This document shows positions 21,754 to 61,057 of a stretch of DNA of 64,000 nucleotides, one piece after another. The stretch is from positions 1,984,001 to 2,048,000 of the forward strand of contig NZ_LN868939.1 in the NCBI RefSeq assembly GCF_001182745.1, in the 5' to 3' direction. Source of the DNA: Nocardia farcinica (GTDB taxonomy: Bacteria; Actinomycetota; Actinomycetes; Mycobacteriales; Mycobacteriaceae). A program made the position numbers and the translations under genes. Within the stretch, counting starts at the first letter, position 1, and each line of letters opens with the position of its first letter. The notes below the pieces were generated by a model. It ran no database searches, was not told where the DNA came from, and saw only the letters and a list, made by a program, of their open reading frames with translations.

Positions 21754-22983
21754 TCAGCCGAGTGCATGCATGGTCGTGCCGCGCTGTTCGAGCACGGTGG
21801 TGCCGAGGACGGCGAGCGAGATGGGGGAGTTGTCGTAACCGGGGCGCTCGACCGGCAGGCGCGCCAGTTCCGCCCCGGTGCCGGGATCGACGGCGACGAT
21901 CGCGTCCGCCACCGGAATGAGCAACCGTCCCGCCATCGAGGCCGGGGTGCCCAGCGCACCCGGCACCGTCCACATCGGCTGCAGGGAGCCCGCCTGCAGG
22001 GCCAACACCTCGGTGCCGGTGAACACCAGATAGGCCGAGCCGATCCGGACGGCCTGCGCGTGCTCACCCATAGGAGCCGAAAGCTGGTGCACGAGTAGGG
22101 GATTGCCGCTGCCGTCGAAGATCGACAGCCGCGGCGGCACGGTGTCGGCGCCGAGCGTGGCGCCCGGCTGATACAGCACGATCTTGGTGTCCGACACCGC
22201 GATCACGCGCGTGCCAGGTGCGTCCGCGTCGGCGCCGGTCAGCACCCGCGAGCCGTACTCCTCGGGCACGGTGTTGTCCTTCGGTGCCGGATTCAACACC
22301 GTCAGCCGCGCGCCCGCGTCTTCCGGGCAGCGTTCCAGCACCGCCAGCCGGGAGGAACTCGACGCCGCGGACAGCAGCGAACAATCCTTGCGCGGCTGGG
22401 TTTTCACATTCACCGGCGCGTCCACGTAGCCGTACTCCAAGGTACGGACCAGATCGGAACGCCACACCTCGAGCCGTCGATCGCCCTGGGCGAGCACATA
22501 GGTGCCGTCCACCGACAGGCGCACGCTGTCGTCCATGTAGCTGCTGCGAGCGGTGCGGCGCGCACCGCTGTCGCCGGCCAGCATCGTCGCCTGGCTGCAC
22601 CCGCGCTGGTCGCGGTACACGGCCACGACCATGCCGAACTGCGACTCCACCCCGCACAACGGCATGTCGCGGCGATACCGCCACACCTCGGCGCCGGTCG
22701 CCGGATCGCGACCGGTCACCGTGCCGTCCGCCGCCGTGACCACCGTGCCGCCCGCCACCAGGGCGCGGCCGGTCGCGTCGTCGGGGGCGTGCCACAGCTC
22801 CCGCAGCGCGGTGGGCAGTTGCTCGGCGGCGGGCGGGGTGGTCGCGGGCTGGGACGCCGTCACCGACTCGGTGCCGGTGGCGTCGCCCCGCGCCCACACG
22901 ACGACCCCCGCCAGCGCCACCGCGACGGCGATGGCGACGGCGGCGATGATGTCGGCGCGCGTTCGCCGCTCGGGTGCGAGCAC
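21754..22983 (-). CDS. Membrane-anchored PQQ-like beta-propeller protein
   Basis: A 409-aa protein with one N-terminal membrane helix (about residues 12-31) and a long extracytoplasmic part built of repeated strands such as GTVTGRDPATGAEVWRYRR and ADAIVAVDPGTGAELARLP, the look of a PQQ-like propeller. Several Cys may form disulfides. Mycobacteria have a similar Ala/Val-rich protein (Rv3212) beside the same helicase gene. Function unknown; a scaffold or envelope role is plausible. The GTG follows TAGTCT by 7 nt. Confidence 0.78.
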   Translation of the reverse strand: MLAPERRTRADIIAAVAIAVAVALAGVVVWARGDATGTESVTASQPATTPPAAEQLPTALRELWHAPDDATGRALVAGGTVVTAADGTVTGRDPATGAEVWRYRRDMPLCGVESQFGMVVAVYRDQRGCSQATMLAGDSGARRTARSSYMDDSVRLSVDGTYVLAQGDRRLEVWRSDLVRTLEYGYVDAPVNVKTQPRKDCSLLSAASSSSRLAVLERCPEDAGARLTVLNPAPKDNTVPEEYGSRVLTGADADAPGTRVIAVSDTKIVLYQPGATLGADTVPPRLSIFDGSGNPLLVHQLSAPMGEHAQAVRIGSAYLVFTGTEVLALQAGSLQPMWTVPGALGTPASMAGRLLIPVADAIVAVDPGTGAELARLPVERPGYDNSPISLAVLGTTVLEQRGTTMHALG

Positions 22984-22990
22984 GACTGCG

Positions 22991-22996
22991 AGACTA
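22991..22996 (-). promoter_or_regulatory. Putative leaderless -10 for the propeller gene
   Basis: TAGTCT (minus strand) lies 7 nt before the GTG at 22983, in the 27-bp gap after the helicase stop. Confidence 0.5.
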
Positions 22997-23010
22997 GCGG
23001 ATCCGGCGAG

Positions 23011-26000
23011 CTACGCCGAAGCCGACGACCCCGCCGTCACCTCCACCTGCTGCTCGCCCGCCGCCTTCTTCCTGGTCCGCTTCGGAGCGGGCTGCGCACC
23101 CGATTCGGGCTCGTCGGCCGTGCGGGTCCGCCGCCGTGGGGCAGCGCCCTCCGCCGACTCAGTCGCCTCGGTGTCAGCCGTCTTCCGCGTCCGGCGGCGC
23201 GGTGTGGCGTCGGCGTCGGTGGTTGCCGTCGCTTCGGTGTCGGCCGTCGTGGTGGTGGCCTTCCGGGTGCGGCGGCGTGGTGCCGGTTCGGCGTCGGCGG
23301 TTGCCGGTGCCTCGGTGTCGGCCGTCGTGGTGGCGGTCTTCCGGGTGCGGCGGCGTGGTGCCGGTTCGGCGTCGGTGGTTGCCGTCGCGTCATCGGCGGG
23401 TGCCTGCCCGGACGCCGGGGTATCGGCCGCGGCCGCGGGGTCGGCGGTCGAGACGGTCGCGGCACCGGTCTCGGCCGTCGCGGCGGCCGACTTCCGAGTG
23501 GCGCGGCGCCGCGGGGCCGGTGCCGCGTCGGCGGAGGCGGTATCCGCCGGAGCGGCGGCCGCGCTGCTTGCCGCTCCGCCATCAGCCGCAGTGCTCGCCG
23601 TCGGGGCGGTCAGGTCGGCCGTCGATGTGTCCGCCGCTTGGGCAGCGGTCAGATCGGCCGGTGCGGTGGTGACCTTGCGGGTGCGTCGGCGGGGTGCCGG
23701 TGCTTCCTCGCTCGGTGCCGCCGCTTCGCCGGTGCTCGCGGCCGCTGTCGCCGAGACCGCGTCGGTCGCGGTGGCCGCGGCTGGAGTTGCGGTGGTGGCC
23801 TTGCGGGTGCGTCGCCGGGGTGCCGGTGCTTCCTCGCTCGATGTCGCCGCTTCGCCGGTATCAGCGGTGGCCGTGGCCGCGACGACGTCTTCGGTGGCCG
23901 CCTTGCGCGTGCGTCGGCGCGGTGCGGGTGCTTCCTCGCTCGGCGCCGCCGCGTCACCGGCGTGCACCGGGTCCGAAGCCGAGGCCGCGTCCCCGGTGGT
24001 CGTGTCCGCGGCCGGAGTCGCCGAGGCGGCCTTGCGGGTGCGTCGGCGCGGTGCCGGTGTCTCCTCGCTCGATGTCGCCGCTGCGCCGGTGCTCCCGGTT
24101 GCCGAGGCGGCATCGGGCGTGCCGGCGTCGTTCGAGGCGGCGTCGGCCGAGGCGGCCGTGGCTGCCTTGCGCGTGCGTCGGCGGGGAGCGGCCTCGGTCG
24201 CCGCCGGAGCGGTGCCGATGTCACCCGCCGCCGGGGCGGTGCCGTTGTCACCCGCTGCCGGGGCGCTGTCGGCGGATGCCGTGCCGCTGCCGCTGTCGGC
24301 TGGAGCCGCGGCACTGCCGGTGTCCGCCGGGGCCGCGATGGTGCCGGCGTCGACCGTTGTCGCGGTGCCCGCCTCGGGTGCGGTCGCATCGGCCGTGCCG
24401 GCGGTGGCGGTGGCCGCGCGGGTGCGGGTGCGGCGGCGGGGAGCCGCGGGCGCGCCGGTTGCTTCCTCCGCGGTCGCTGCGGCAACCGCAGCGGTGGCAT
24501 CGGCGGTGGCGTCGGTGGCGGCGCCTTCGGCCGAGTCGGCCGAGTCGGCCGGGCGGCTGTCGTCGGCCGTCGCGGTGCCCTTCCGGGTCCGGCGTCGGGC
24601 GGGACGTTCCGTCGCCCCCGTGGGCTCGGCGACCGTCGGTTCCGCGGCGACCGTCGGTTCCGTATCGAGGCCGGCGGAGGTCGCGGTGGTGCCCGCCTCG
24701 TCGGCCGCGGTGACCGGGGTGGTCTCCGTCGGGGCCCGGCCGGTATCGCCGGCCGCCGAGTCGGCGGTCGAATCGACCTGCTGCACAACGGCATTCGCTT
24801 CGGACGACGACCCGCGCCGCCGACGCCTGCGCTTGCGCCGCGACGACGAACCACCTTCGCCGCCGCCGTGCTCCTGGCTCTGCGACGGTGTCGGGGCCGC
24901 GTCCGCTACCGCCGCGGTCTCGTCCAGCGGTTCACCGTTCTCGGCGGCACCGTTCGGGGACACACCGTCCGGTGCGCCACCGTTCTGCGTCGCATCGATC
25001 GGCTTGCCACGCAGCGTGCGCCTGCGGTTGCGCTTGCGCGGGGTGCGGGCCGGACGCTCGGCGACGGTCTCGTCCGCGGTGCGTGCCGGGGCGGCGCGGC
25101 GGACCTTGCCGGTGACCCCTTCGGGAATGCCCAGATCCGAAAACAGGTGAGGGGAGCGCGAATACGTCTCGACCGGTTCCGGGATGCCGAGGCCGAGGGC
25201 GGCGTCGATGGCGGCCCAGCGGTTGAGCTCGTCCCAGTCGATGAGGGTCACCGCGACGCCGGTGCGGCCCGCTCGGCCGGTGCGGCCGATGCGGTGCACG
25301 TAGGTCTTCTCGTCCTCGGGGCACTGGTAGTTGATGACGTGGGTGACGTCGTCGATGTCGATGCCGCGCGCGGCGACATCGGTCGCGACGAGCACGTCGA
25401 TGACGCCCTTGCGGAACTTGTCCAGCGCCTTCTCGCGCTGCACCTGCCCGAGATCGCCGTGCACGGCGCCGACGGCGAAACCGCGCTCGGCCAGGTCGTC
25501 GGCCACCTTCTGGGCGGTGCGTTTGGTGCGGGTGAAGATCATGGTGGCGCCGCGCCCCTCGGCCTGCAGCACCCGTGCGATCAGTTCGGCCTTGTCCAGC
25601 GCGTGCGCGCGGTAGACGAACTGCGCGGTGCGGTCGTGCACGGCCGAATCGTGCGGCTCCTCGGCCCGGATGTGGGTCGGGCGGGTGAGGAACGTGCGGG
25701 CCAGGGTGATGATCGGGCCCGGCATGGTGGCCGAGAACAGCATGGTCTGCCGCTTGGCCGGGACCATGGTGAGGATGCGCTCGATATCGGGCAGGAAGCC
25801 CAGATCCAGCATCTCGTCGGCCTCGTCGAGCACCAGCACGCCGATCTTGCCGAGGATGAGGTGGTTCTGCTTGGCCAGATCGAGCAGGCGGCCGGGCGTG
25901 CCGACGACCACGTCGACGCCCTCGCGCAGCGCGGCGATCTGGGAGTCGTAGGGTCGGCCGCCGTAGATGGCGGTCACCTTCAGCGCGCCCTTGTGGTTGC

Positions 26001-26412
26001 GCAGGTACTTGCCCGCTCGCACCAGATCGTCGGTGACCTGGATGCACAGCTCCCGGGTCGGCACGATCACCAGCGCGCGCGGGGTGCCGTCCAGGGGCGT
26101 GGTGCCGGAGTCGGCGGTGGCGATGCGGTGCAGCAGCGGCACGCCGAAACCGAAGGTCTTGCCCATGCCGGTGCGGGCCTGGCCGATGAGGTCCTCGCCG
26201 GCCAGCGCCAGCGGCAGGGTGAGTTCCTGAATCGCGAAAGTGCGTTCGATGCCGATCTCGGCGAGCGCGCGCACGATTTCGTCGCGGACCCCCAATTCGG
26301 CGAAAGTCGGGGGAGTGTGAGTCGTGTCCAGTTCGGCGGTCAGCATCGTGTCCGTCAGACCGGGTTCCTGCTCGATGGTGATCTTGCTCAGGATCGTGCC
26401 TTTCCTCGTCAT
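23011..26412 (-). CDS. DEAD-box RNA helicase with giant repetitive C-terminal tail
   Basis: A 1133-aa protein. Residues 1-430 are a complete DEAD-box helicase: Q motif (FAIQELTLPLA), Walker A (QARTGMGKT), PTREL, DEAD in VLVLDEADEMLDLGF, SAT, and HRIGRTGRAG. The mycobacterial counterpart (Rv3211, recalled as about 530 aa) ends shortly after this core. Here about 600 further residues of low complexity follow, mainly Ala/Thr/Asp/Glu/Pro punctuated by 13 basic repeats of the form PAPRRRTRK. Such tails bind RNA and may drive condensates. Start uncertain: the ATG at 26412 was chosen, with a CTG (preceded by AGGAAAGG) and an ATG at 26346 also in frame. The 5' region is unusually long. Confidence 0.9.
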   Translation of the reverse strand: MTRKGTILSKITIEQEPGLTDTMLTAELDTTHTPPTFAELGVRDEIVRALAEIGIERTFAIQELTLPLALAGEDLIGQARTGMGKTFGFGVPLLHRIATADSGTTPLDGTPRALVIVPTRELCIQVTDDLVRAGKYLRNHKGALKVTAIYGGRPYDSQIAALREGVDVVVGTPGRLLDLAKQNHLILGKIGVLVLDEADEMLDLGFLPDIERILTMVPAKRQTMLFSATMPGPIITLARTFLTRPTHIRAEEPHDSAVHDRTAQFVYRAHALDKAELIARVLQAEGRGATMIFTRTKRTAQKVADDLAERGFAVGAVHGDLGQVQREKALDKFRKGVIDVLVATDVAARGIDIDDVTHVINYQCPEDEKTYVHRIGRTGRAGRTGVAVTLIDWDELNRWAAIDAALGLGIPEPVETYSRSPHLFSDLGIPEGVTGKVRRAAPARTADETVAERPARTPRKRNRRRTLRGKPIDATQNGGAPDGVSPNGAAENGEPLDETAAVADAAPTPSQSQEHGGGEGGSSSRRKRRRRRRGSSSEANAVVQQVDSTADSAAGDTGRAPTETTPVTAADEAGTTATSAGLDTEPTVAAEPTVAEPTGATERPARRRTRKGTATADDSRPADSADSAEGAATDATADATAAVAAATAEEATGAPAAPRRRTRTRAATATAGTADATAPEAGTATTVDAGTIAAPADTGSAAAPADSGSGTASADSAPAAGDNGTAPAAGDIGTAPAATEAAPRRRTRKAATAASADAASNDAGTPDAASATGSTGAAATSSEETPAPRRRTRKAASATPAADTTTGDAASASDPVHAGDAAAPSEEAPAPRRRTRKAATEDVVAATATADTGEAATSSEEAPAPRRRTRKATTATPAAATATDAVSATAAASTGEAAAPSEEAPAPRRRTRKVTTAPADLTAAQAADTSTADLTAPTASTAADGGAASSAAAAPADTASADAAPAPRRRATRKSAAATAETGAATVSTADPAAAADTPASGQAPADDATATTDAEPAPRRRTRKTATTTADTEAPATADAEPAPRRRTRKATTTTADTEATATTDADATPRRRTRKTADTEATESAEGAAPRRRTRTADEPESGAQPAPKRTRKKAAGEQQVEVTAGSSASA
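23060..24615 (-). repeat. Thirteen basic PRRRTRK-type repeats within the helicase gene
   Basis: Copies of the core RRRTRK (variants RRRTRT, RRRATRK, KRTRKK) recur every 20-70 codons, separated by Ala/Thr/Glu/Asp-rich spacers; several spacers share TSSEEAPAP or TTADTEA. Spacing is irregular and the reading frame is kept throughout, so this is a coding repeat that has probably grown by slippage or recombination. Confidence 0.85.
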
Positions 26413-26925
26413 CGCGTCACGCGCGCACGAGGCGTGGGGCGGACCGGTCGGTCCACGACGACCACGTATCCGCCTGTGATACTCACCGGGGCCGCTGCCG
26501 GATGTACTCGCGTGCCGTGGTGGACGGCAGCTGCGCGGGCATTGTCGGCCCTGAGCAATCGGCGCGGCGCGGGGGTGATGCGGATCTGGTGCGCGCACAT
26601 TTCCGGACAACGCAGCGGTCCGGCCACCTGGTGCGACCGGGCGGTCATCCGTGTGCGGACCGCCGTCCCGGCGTGCTCTTCGAGGTGGGCGCGGGAGCGA
26701 AATTCTCCGTTGTCCACCTTGATTGTAGCGTGATAATGTGCTCCGCCCGAATTCCCGGTCCGGTCATTTCCCCGCAAAAGTTCCGCCCCGGCTGACGTGC
26801 CCTCGATTTCCGGTGTGCGACAGACCGTTTCGGCCGCGCCGCGCGACCACGGCGGCCGGTCCGCGACACCGCCGGGACGGGGGCTTGCTGTAACCCTCGG
26901 TAGCGGGTTGTGAGAGATTCTTGCC
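26413..26925. other. 513-bp divergent intergenic region
   Basis: No ORF here looks protein-like. An AT-rich island at 26700-26760 contains TTGTCC-N16-GATAAT (26710-26737, plus strand), a fair promoter for the hydrolase gene. On the minus strand TACAAT (26722-26727) could be the -10 for the helicase, leaving a 5' leader of over 300 nt, as is common for RNA-helicase mRNAs. Confidence 0.45.
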
Positions 26926-29157: not shown

Positions 29158-31277
<2,120 letters not shown>

Positions 31278-59326: not shown

Positions 59327-61057
59327 TCAGCGGGGCAGGGGCAGGATCTCCACCGGATCACCGTCGCGGGCGCCGGGCGCGACGACGGCCAATCCGTCGC
59401 GATCGATCAGGCCGCCGAGATGGGCGGTGCGCACCGCGGCGTCGCCGAGCCAGCCGCCCTCGGCGGCGCGCGCGGGCACGACGCGGGTGACGGGTGCGGC
59501 GACCGCGGCCGCGTTGGCGAGCGGAACGAGCAGCGGCCGCGGCGGCTGCGCCCCGGTGCGGGCGGCGACGAGCGCGGGGGTCAGCGCCAGTGCGGTCGCC
59601 ACGGCGGCGAACGGATTCCCGGGCAGCCCGAGAACTGTTGTGCCGGAATCTGTTTCGGCGACGATGGTGGATCCGCCCGGGCGCATCCGCAGGCGCGGCA
59701 CCACGATCGTCGCGTCCGCCCGGTCCAGCGCACCGCGCAGCTGGTCGGCCGCGCCGCGCCCGGTCGCGCCGACCACCACCAGCAGATCGCAGTCGTCCGC
59801 GGCGGCCAGCACCTCGTCGAAACCGTTCGGGGTGTCGCGCAGGTGCACCAGGTCGACGGTGCGCACCCCGCAGGCGGTGAGCAGATCGGGCAGGACCGGC
59901 CCGATCGAGTCACGGGTCTGCCCGGCGCGCAGCGGGCCCGTGCTGCGGATCTCGTCGCCGGTCACCACGATCCGGGCGCGCACCGGCCCGCGCACGGCGG
60001 CCTCGGTGACCTCCACGCTCGCGGCGGCCGACACCAGCGCGAGGGTGACCGGGGTGCCCGCCGAAGCGACCAGGTCGCCGACCTCGCGGTCCTCGCCGCG
60101 GCGGCGGATGTCCTCGCGCAGCGGGGTGTCGGGCAGCCGGTGCAGCAGCTGGTCGGGGGACAGCTCGGCGAACTCGTCGCGCACCACCCGGTCGGTGCCC
60201 TCCGGCACGTGCGCGCCGGTGGCGATGCGCACCGCCTCGCCGGGCCGCAACCCCGCGGGCCGCTGCCCGCCCGCGAAGCCGATGTCGCGGCGCAGGCGCC
60301 ACGGCCCATCCCCGGCGACCGCGTACCCGTCCATCGCGGAGACGTCGAAGCGCGGCAGCGCCTCGGCAGCGGTCAGCGGCTCGGCCAGCGCGGCGCCCCG
60401 CGCGTCGCGCAGCACACCGCGGTGGACGGGCAGCGCGGTCAGTTCCGCCCGCAGCGCGGCCCGGGCCTGCGCCAGGTCGAGCGGTTCGCCCGCCCGCACG
60501 CGGGCCCGCCGCACCTCGTCCTCGGTGTCGCAGTCGGTCACGCCGTCGAGTTCGACGGTCACGCTGCCCGCGGGCACCAGCGCCTTCATCGGCTGGTTCA
60601 CCACCGAGTCGAGGCCGTCGAGCGCGGCGCGCAGGGCCGGGCGCCGCCACACCCCGGCGAGATACTGCGGCCGCCCGGAACGGTCGGCGGCGAACACCGC
60701 CTGCGCATCGGAATCGGCTGCGACGCGCAGCAATTCGGCGACGGTCGCGCCGGTGAGGAAGGGCATGTCGGCGGCGAGCACGACGACCAGCGGCGCCGCC
60801 GAGTCCGCCAGTGCCCGCAGCCCCGCCTCGATCGCGGCCACCGGCCCCGAGCCCGGCGGAGACTCACGTACCTGGCGGATATCCGGATCCAGGCCGGGGC
60901 GGTGCGGCCCGACCACCACCCGCGCCGCGCACCCGGCGACGGCCGCGAGCGCCGCCTCGAGCATCGAGCGGCCACCGACCATCAGGCCGGGCTTGTCCAC
61001 GCCGCCCATCCGGCTGGCGCGCCCGCCCGCCAGCACGATCGCGTCCGCGGGTGTCAC
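59327..61057 (-). CDS. MobA-MoeA fusion for molybdenum cofactor synthesis
   Basis: About 576 aa. Residues 1-185 are a MobA-type nucleotidyltransferase (AIVLAGGRASRMGGVDKP, then VLAADMPFLTG) that adds GMP to the cofactor. Residues 195-576 are MoeA (FDVSAMDGYAV, VVTGDEI, GLPGNPFAA), which inserts molybdenum. MoeA acts before MobA, so the fusion may channel the intermediate. The GTG at 61057 has GGAG about 8 nt upstream; an ATG at 61096 is also in frame. Placement near narGHJI fits its need for the guanylated cofactor. Confidence 0.9.
   Translation of the reverse strand: MTPADAIVLAGGRASRMGGVDKPGLMVGGRSMLEAALAAVAGCAARVVVGPHRPGLDPDIRQVRESPPGSGPVAAIEAGLRALADSAAPLVVVLAADMPFLTGATVAELLRVAADSDAQAVFAADRSGRPQYLAGVWRRPALRAALDGLDSVVNQPMKALVPAGSVTVELDGVTDCDTEDEVRRARVRAGEPLDLAQARAALRAELTALPVHRGVLRDARGAALAEPLTAAEALPRFDVSAMDGYAVAGDGPWRLRRDIGFAGGQRPAGLRPGEAVRIATGAHVPEGTDRVVRDEFAELSPDQLLHRLPDTPLREDIRRRGEDREVGDLVASAGTPVTLALVSAAASVEVTEAAVRGPVRARIVVTGDEIRSTGPLRAGQTRDSIGPVLPDLLTACGVRTVDLVHLRDTPNGFDEVLAAADDCDLLVVVGATGRGAADQLRGALDRADATIVVPRLRMRPGGSTIVAETDSGTTVLGLPGNPFAAVATALALTPALVAARTGAQPPRPLLVPLANAAAVAAPVTRVVPARAAEGGWLGDAAVRTAHLGGLIDRDGLAVVAPGARDGDPVEILPLPR

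Follow-up and report, generated by a model that had tools for sequence, protein, structure and literature searches.

How does a bacterial RNA helicase come to carry a tail longer than its own catalytic core, and what might such a tail do? The question is raised by a gene on the minus strand of a 64,000-nucleotide stretch of Nocardia farcinica DNA (hereafter the window; its genome, spread over 5 contigs, measures 6.46 Mb), which extends from 23011 to 26412 and encodes a DEAD-box RNA helicase with an expanded C-terminal tail (1133 aa from the ATG at 26412). Other starts are available to the reading frame, namely an in-frame ATG at 26346 and a TTG at 26610 that gives a longer ORF. The core together with the N-terminus (aa 1-414; 25171..26412, minus) carries the motifs GMGKT, DEADEMLD, FSATMPG and HRIGRTGR, and was matched above cut-off by the Pfam families DEAD (5.8e-45) and Helicase_C (1.2e-32). 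The two RecA-like domains with the GxGKT, DEAD, SAT and HRIGRTGR signatures of a DEAD-box RNA helicase are thus all present by Pfam and motifs, and the best solved relative by sequence is CshA (5ivl), which agrees with the family that a first, sequence-only reading of this DNA had named. The closest named core among the matches listed is from Nocardia (89% identity). As for a finer assignment, the protein falls under the curated cut-off of the NCBIfam equivalogs CshA, RhlE, DbpA, SrmB and RhlB; the top score was that of CshA (397 bits vs a cut-off of 646), and the best 25 of 32 families were all below theirs. An identity as DeaD/CsdA was ruled out because Pfam finds in it neither the DbpA RNA-binding nor the DeaD dimerisation domain. 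At least two further DEAD-box proteins are encoded in the genome, one of which (L248) has DbpA-type RNA-binding and DeaD dimerisation domains. On the opposite strand the helicase gene is overlain by two very long ORFs (865 aa, 22553-25150, plus; 1314 aa, 22789-26733, plus); no Pfam match was obtained for either, and they are probably by-products of GC-rich codons.

The downstream neighbour of the helicase gene encodes a PQQ/BamB-like protein (21754..22983, minus; Pfam PF13360 just under cut-off), and a histidine phosphatase gene also lies downstream of the helicase. A relative of the PQQ/BamB-like protein was found at 25 of 80 kept helicase loci, a sample picked by similarity whose counts are uninformative on frequencies. 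These include 9/9 mycobacterial loci, all of which have both downstream genes, as in the RhlE group, and cores 70-77% identical to that of the window. The PQQ-like and phosphatase-like neighbourhood fits that of rhlE (Rv3211), and the nine loci are presumably Rv3211, the M. smegmatis counterpart of which would be MSMEG_1930. Two reviews describe the M. tuberculosis degradosome as comprising RhlE, RNase E, RNase J and PNPase (PMC7509114, PMC8628891). MSMEG_1930 is presented in one paper as a helicase that contributes to cold-stress adaptation and is repressed by CrsL (PMC12709188); another lists it as a predicted helicase whose levels stay steady in hypoxia (PMC6606801). The helicase of the window is probably an actinobacterial degradosome-type enzyme, in the position that RhlE has in mycobacteria.

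The tail begins at ETYS (aa 415), runs to aa 1133 (23014..25170, minus) and is nearly all predicted to be disordered. With 719 aa against the 414 aa of the core it is indeed the longer part of the protein. At its base lies an Arg-rich anchor, PRKRNRRRTLR (25009..25047, minus), which is also found in short-tailed relatives, and further on a poly-basic run, RRKRRRRRR (24814..24840, minus). The repeat array itself occupies 23065..24597 (minus) and contains twelve RRR(A)TR(K/T) blocks and a degenerate one, KRTRKK (23065-23082, minus), a count on the minus strand that bears out the thirteen repeats first proposed at 23060..24615. Blocks 1, 3 to 7 and 9 to 11 read RRRTRK, with first bases on the minus strand at 24597, 24183, 24048, 23919, 23817, 23691, 23355, 23277 and 23199, respectively; block 2 reads RRRTRTR (first base 24438, minus), block 8 RRRATRK (23511, minus) and block 12 RRRTRT (23136, minus). 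They are separated by spacers made of Ala, Thr, Ser, Pro, Gly, Asp and Glu. When the anchor and the poly-basic run upstream of the array are included, the whole tail holds 15 basic blocks. The blocks had been called evenly charged, which holds for the overall charge, close to neutral, but not for their spacing, which is uneven (mean 45 aa, CV 0.45). A 78-bp unit within the array is present in 2.7 copies with 87% matches, indicating recent duplication, and the RRRTRK codon pattern has 10 exact matches genome-wide, nine of them in the helicase gene and the tenth at L127. Two other short tandem repeats occur in the window, at 30210-30261 and 60352-60390, with units of 15 and 18 bp.

The composition of the tail is as unusual as its length. 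In its last 659 aa, K+R (76) and D+E (89) nearly balance and F, W and Y are absent, and the charged fraction of the tail is 0.25-0.26. The same 659 aa hold 14 basic blocks, whereas 2000 shuffled versions of them averaged 0.73 and never exceeded 4, and the charge-segregation score of the tail lies 12.9 SD above 300 shuffles. Its kappa is 0.39, a rough value on a coarse scale; this and the predicted disorder would suit a KKE/D-like charge-block polyampholyte (kappa about 0.1-0.4), although the charged fraction is low. An AlphaFold model, computed from 43 sequences (the window protein and 42 chosen among at least 120 matches), has a mean pLDDT of 53.9 overall; most of residues 28-437 is folded, the N-terminus and a few loops of the core being exceptions, and from about residue 438 to the end pLDDT is mostly below 50 with zero secondary structure. 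The disorder prediction that had been suggested as a check therefore points to a disordered tail. The charge-hydropathy rule places the core on the folded side and the tail at the boundary (0.4206 vs 0.4204), so that for the tail it is undecided and the call of disorder comes from the AlphaFold model and the composition.

An Arg-aromatic or RGG phase-separating tail, which we take as a comparison class of helicase tails with Tyr/Phe stickers, was ruled out, as the blocks read RRRTRK and the last 659 aa have no F, W or Y. The lack of aromatics in this stretch disfavours self-driven phase separation of the Arg-aromatic kind, and RNA-driven coacervation would, by analogy, be likelier than self-condensation for such a tail. 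With no net charge, only about one residue in four charged and no aromatics, the tail should need RNA in order to condense, if it condenses at all.

The blocks and the spacers have diverged in different ways. When the 12 copies were aligned on the block and compared in all pairs, the 462 comparisons of block codons gave 196 synonymous and 62 replacement differences and the 1122 of flanking spacer codons 159 and 791, respectively, pairs being non-independent and the motif-based finding of copies favouring block identity. In seven hand-picked aligned unit pairs the figures were 14 synonymous and 0 replacement differences for the blocks and 15 and 56 for the spacers. Silent differences have accumulated, so the blocks are not alike merely through very recent copying.

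Near-identical records retrieved by protein search allow the tail to be followed over short distances; P0001 to P0003 are database records that are not tied to named strains. P0001 has 0/414 core differences from the window, and its twelve blocks, of which one reads RRRARK, occupy the same positions; tail residues are changed at 33/595 positions in spacers and 2/111 in blocks. P0002, at 1/414 core differences, lacks 119 aa, which correspond to exactly three blocks removed in phase, with 22/497 spacer and 0/90 block residues changed in the remaining tail. The suggestion that repeat number varies is thereby confirmed, at the level of records and not of named strains. The deletion junction of P0002 sits within a repeated SSEEAPAPRRRTRK-like stretch and would fit recombination between repeats. 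For block versus spacer substitution in close records, Fisher tests gave p 0.15 and 0.035, one of two being significant with the window as shared reference. The third record, P0003 (933 aa), has a core identical to that of P0001 and loses its reading frame within the array, a break that may be genuine or an artefact of sequencing. Three N. amikacinitolerans records have 6 blocks each; comparison of P0008 with P0010 and with P0021 shows 11 gapped positions in the tail in either case, and 1/396 and 5/396 core differences, respectively. In the sister species G032, known from a separate assembly, the tail measures 626 aa. The tail of another close relative, P0004, contains beside its Arg blocks a Lys-Ala-Thr stretch of the AAKKTAAKK type, which we liken to histone-H1-like repeats.

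At the scale of the genus, 148 Nocardia genomes were drawn, of which 143 had a helicase match at E 1e-150 or better; 142 matches were examined (G122, at a contig edge, was left out), two are tailless because the contig ends, and 133 of the 140 tails are complete with a stop codon. In these 133 orthologues the tail varies from 119 to 1009 aa, with 94 below 200 aa, 9 at 200-299 and 30 of at least 300, and block number follows length (r = 0.98), as was found when the comparison of tail length and repeat count proposed at the outset was made among relatives. Long tails have about one block per 49 residues. The anchor pattern is present in 102/133 tails and a poly-basic run beyond tail residue 60 in 133/133. 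In the window the extreme C-terminus is GSSASA (23014..23031, minus), and an -SA ending was found in 72/133 tails (26/30 long and 46/103 shorter ones). It recurs although the remaining tail is hypervariable, and could possibly be a docking or proteolysis signal. The net charge per residue of the 30 long tails has a mean of 0.004 and an SD of 0.022 (range -0.041 to 0.051). Precise tuning of the charge is not supported, as this spread equals the binomial expectation of 0.024 for charges placed at random around zero.

Long tails arose more than once. A tree of core DNA (145 rows including five outgroups, short search) requires four switches of tail class, of which well supported branches force three or more, and the outgroups are short-tailed. 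A single clade of all 34 long-tailed rows (30 complete and 4 contig-cut but already above 300 aa), a group set by length before the tree was made, was rejected (p-AU 0.0018); the 14 long-tailed rows outside the largest clade were also rejected as one group, with a p-AU of 0.028 that is optimistic because this group was named after seeing the tree. The wording of the blocks also differs by clade, being RRRTRK in that of the window, RKRTRR, RKRATK and RRRASR in the large clade and KPRRTRK in Streptomyces, and the Lys:Arg ratio in blocks is 412:804 in the large long-tailed Nocardia clade vs 74:307 in the clade of the window. Streptomyces, which the core tree does not include, has tails of at least 300 aa at 13/18 loci (two contig-cut) and shorter ones at 5, and in the 58 loci from other genera the tail always stays below 300 aa (four of the 58 are cut). 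A separate Streptomyces origin would be consistent with these 58 loci, which, like the 18, come from the similarity-picked 80. The long Streptomyces tails resemble that of the window in having RRRTRK-type blocks about every 31-42 aa (six tails measured) and differ from it in that the blocks are closer together and net charge is slightly positive. Recent species-specific duplications were observed as well, with an exact repeat of 44 aa in L089 and one of 63 aa in a Streptomyces tail. In a contig labelled as a Spirochaetaceae MAG (L061), a helicase of actinobacterial type with 61% identity was found, and this contig is probably mis-binned.

RNase E was considered as a possible partner. In the genome of the window (L247:1246-4881, minus) its catalytic part is flanked on either side by acidic, Ala-rich extensions that contain Arg runs; an IF2_N match (PF04760) was also noted near its N-terminus. 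The enzyme was detected in 144/148 Nocardia genomes, with frames that span 1023 to 1565 aa when five short frames and one split gene are excluded. Median frame length was 1112 aa in 32 long-tailed and 1158 aa in 102 short-tailed species (p 0.002, relatedness ignored), and frames above 1230 aa occur in 21/102 short-tailed vs 1/32 long-tailed species. These counts omit one RNase E split over two contigs, five cut or short frames (two in long-tailed species) and any genome in which the helicase match was lacking or its core truncated, and three species with contig-cut tails below 300 aa are counted as short. Co-expansion of RNase E with the helicase tail was not found; the raw trend is opposite, and supported branches give only three independent pairs. 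A trade-off between the two lengths is possible, and relatedness may explain it.

Comparison with known systems places the tail in a familiar kind with some features of its own. Like it, two of the mycobacterial tails (L008, L013) have an anchor, which there reads RRRTRGG, and a single poly-basic run; all nine are 103-131 aa long with 2 basic blocks, whereas the tail of the window has 719 aa and 15. The closest experimentally studied analogue found is the Lys-rich KKE/D tail of eukaryotic (yeast) snoRNP proteins and of the helicase Dbp3, whose charge blocks form salt-sensitive coacervates with RNA in vitro (PMC11528048). Such tails are likewise terminal and disordered with alternating charge blocks, and one of them sits on an RNA helicase; they differ in being eukaryotic, in using Lys and not Arg, and in their high charged fraction and positive net charge (PMC11528048). 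By analogy with them, RNA-dependent coacervation of the Nocardia tail is plausible. DEAD-box proteins are reported to mark condensates in bacteria as well, in E. coli with DeaD, where SrmB and RhlE co-localise (PMC12758526); in contrast, the DeaD-like protein of the window's genome is a separate one, and the tailed helicase is without DeaD domains. No paper on these long helicase tails was present among the matches listed in the open-licence literature (titles and abstract openings), which is weak evidence of absence. Charged disordered helicase tails are a known kind; what stands out here is that repeat number shifts over a nearly frozen core, and that long tails have more than one origin.

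The reading that we put forward, and to which we lend about as much belief as doubt, is that the tail is a multivalent, length-tunable polyampholyte that tethers a degradosome-type RNA-remodelling helicase to RNA, perhaps also to other charged tails, and that it was expanded by in-phase tandem duplication. A short basic tail would have been turned into a multivalent polyampholyte by such duplications. Each RRRTRK-type block may make a weak, sequence-nonspecific contact with RNA phosphates. The acidic spacers would hold the chain in solution, bring its charge close to neutral and compete for the Arg blocks, so that binding should be weak and multivalent and should depend on salt and RNA. Avidity and reach would be set by repeat number, and recombination between repeats that are nearly identical could therefore alter the strength of the tether with the ATPase untouched. 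Several points count against this reading: with near-zero net charge and about a quarter of residues charged, it would be weaker than a plain basic RNA-binding tail; aromatics are lacking; the charge of long tails scatters as chance would have it; the block-versus-spacer contrast in close records is significant in one of two comparisons; the charge-hydropathy rule leaves the tail undecided; 94/133 Nocardia species manage with a tail below 200 aa; and long helicase tails come without longer RNase E frames.

The main and serious alternative, somewhat improbable in our estimate, is a neutral or nearly neutral expansion, in which GC-rich tandem repeats in an unconstrained disordered tail gain and lose copies through unequal recombination, the extra copies are idle, and the blocks seem to be kept through constraints of solubility and codon bias. 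It accounts well for big length swings between close relatives, for recent species-specific duplications such as those of 44 aa (L089) and 63 aa (Streptomyces), for the many replacements tolerated by the spacers and for a charge spread that equals chance. It fits less well with block codons that diverge silently with few replacements, and with a like architecture in different wording in lineages that do not form one clade; the tracking of length by block number also speaks against it, although duplication of block plus spacer alone would yield the same correlation. That the array was inflated by an assembly error, the refutation which had been foreseen for the repeat count, is very improbable indeed. 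Such repeats can be misread or broken, as the frame loss of P0003 illustrates, but the assembly has five contigs, the separate record P0001 shows twelve blocks at the same places and G032 has its long tail in an assembly of its own.

A tail that binds RNA is also to be set against one that binds something else. Charge complementarity might hold degradosome or ribosome partners, for example the RNase E tails, in a protein-protein scaffold; this we regard as unlikely. The similar Arg runs in the acidic extensions of the genome's RNase E would suit it, as would the place that reviews give to mycobacterial RhlE in the degradosome (PMC7509114, PMC8628891). Against these stand the absence of co-expansion with RNase E and of a conserved partner motif beyond the anchor, the poly-Arg run and the C-terminal end. 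Basic repeats might instead park the helicase on DNA or nascent transcripts in the manner of histone H1 or of HupB, which they may resemble, and this we consider quite improbable. The window's Arg-Thr blocks and near-neutral spacers, and the membership of the enzyme in an RNA helicase family, disagree with such a nucleoid role, even with the AAKKTAAKK-type stretch of P0004 and the Lys-richer blocks of the large long-tailed Nocardia clade in its favour.

If the RNA tether is the right reading, it could be taken further. An idea that we offer only tentatively and hold to be unlikely is that the tail is an evolvable rheostat, by which Nocardia and Streptomyces lineages would repeatedly re-set the valency of an RNA-decay helicase through gain or loss of whole blocks, and thus the size or material state of RNA-decay condensates, with the enzyme itself frozen. 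Whether charged disordered tails of bacterial helicases act through valency is hard to test by designed truncations alone. P0003 suggests caution with short-read assemblies over such arrays. The genus nevertheless offers a natural length series, from 119 to 1009 aa, in which near-identical relatives stand three blocks apart.
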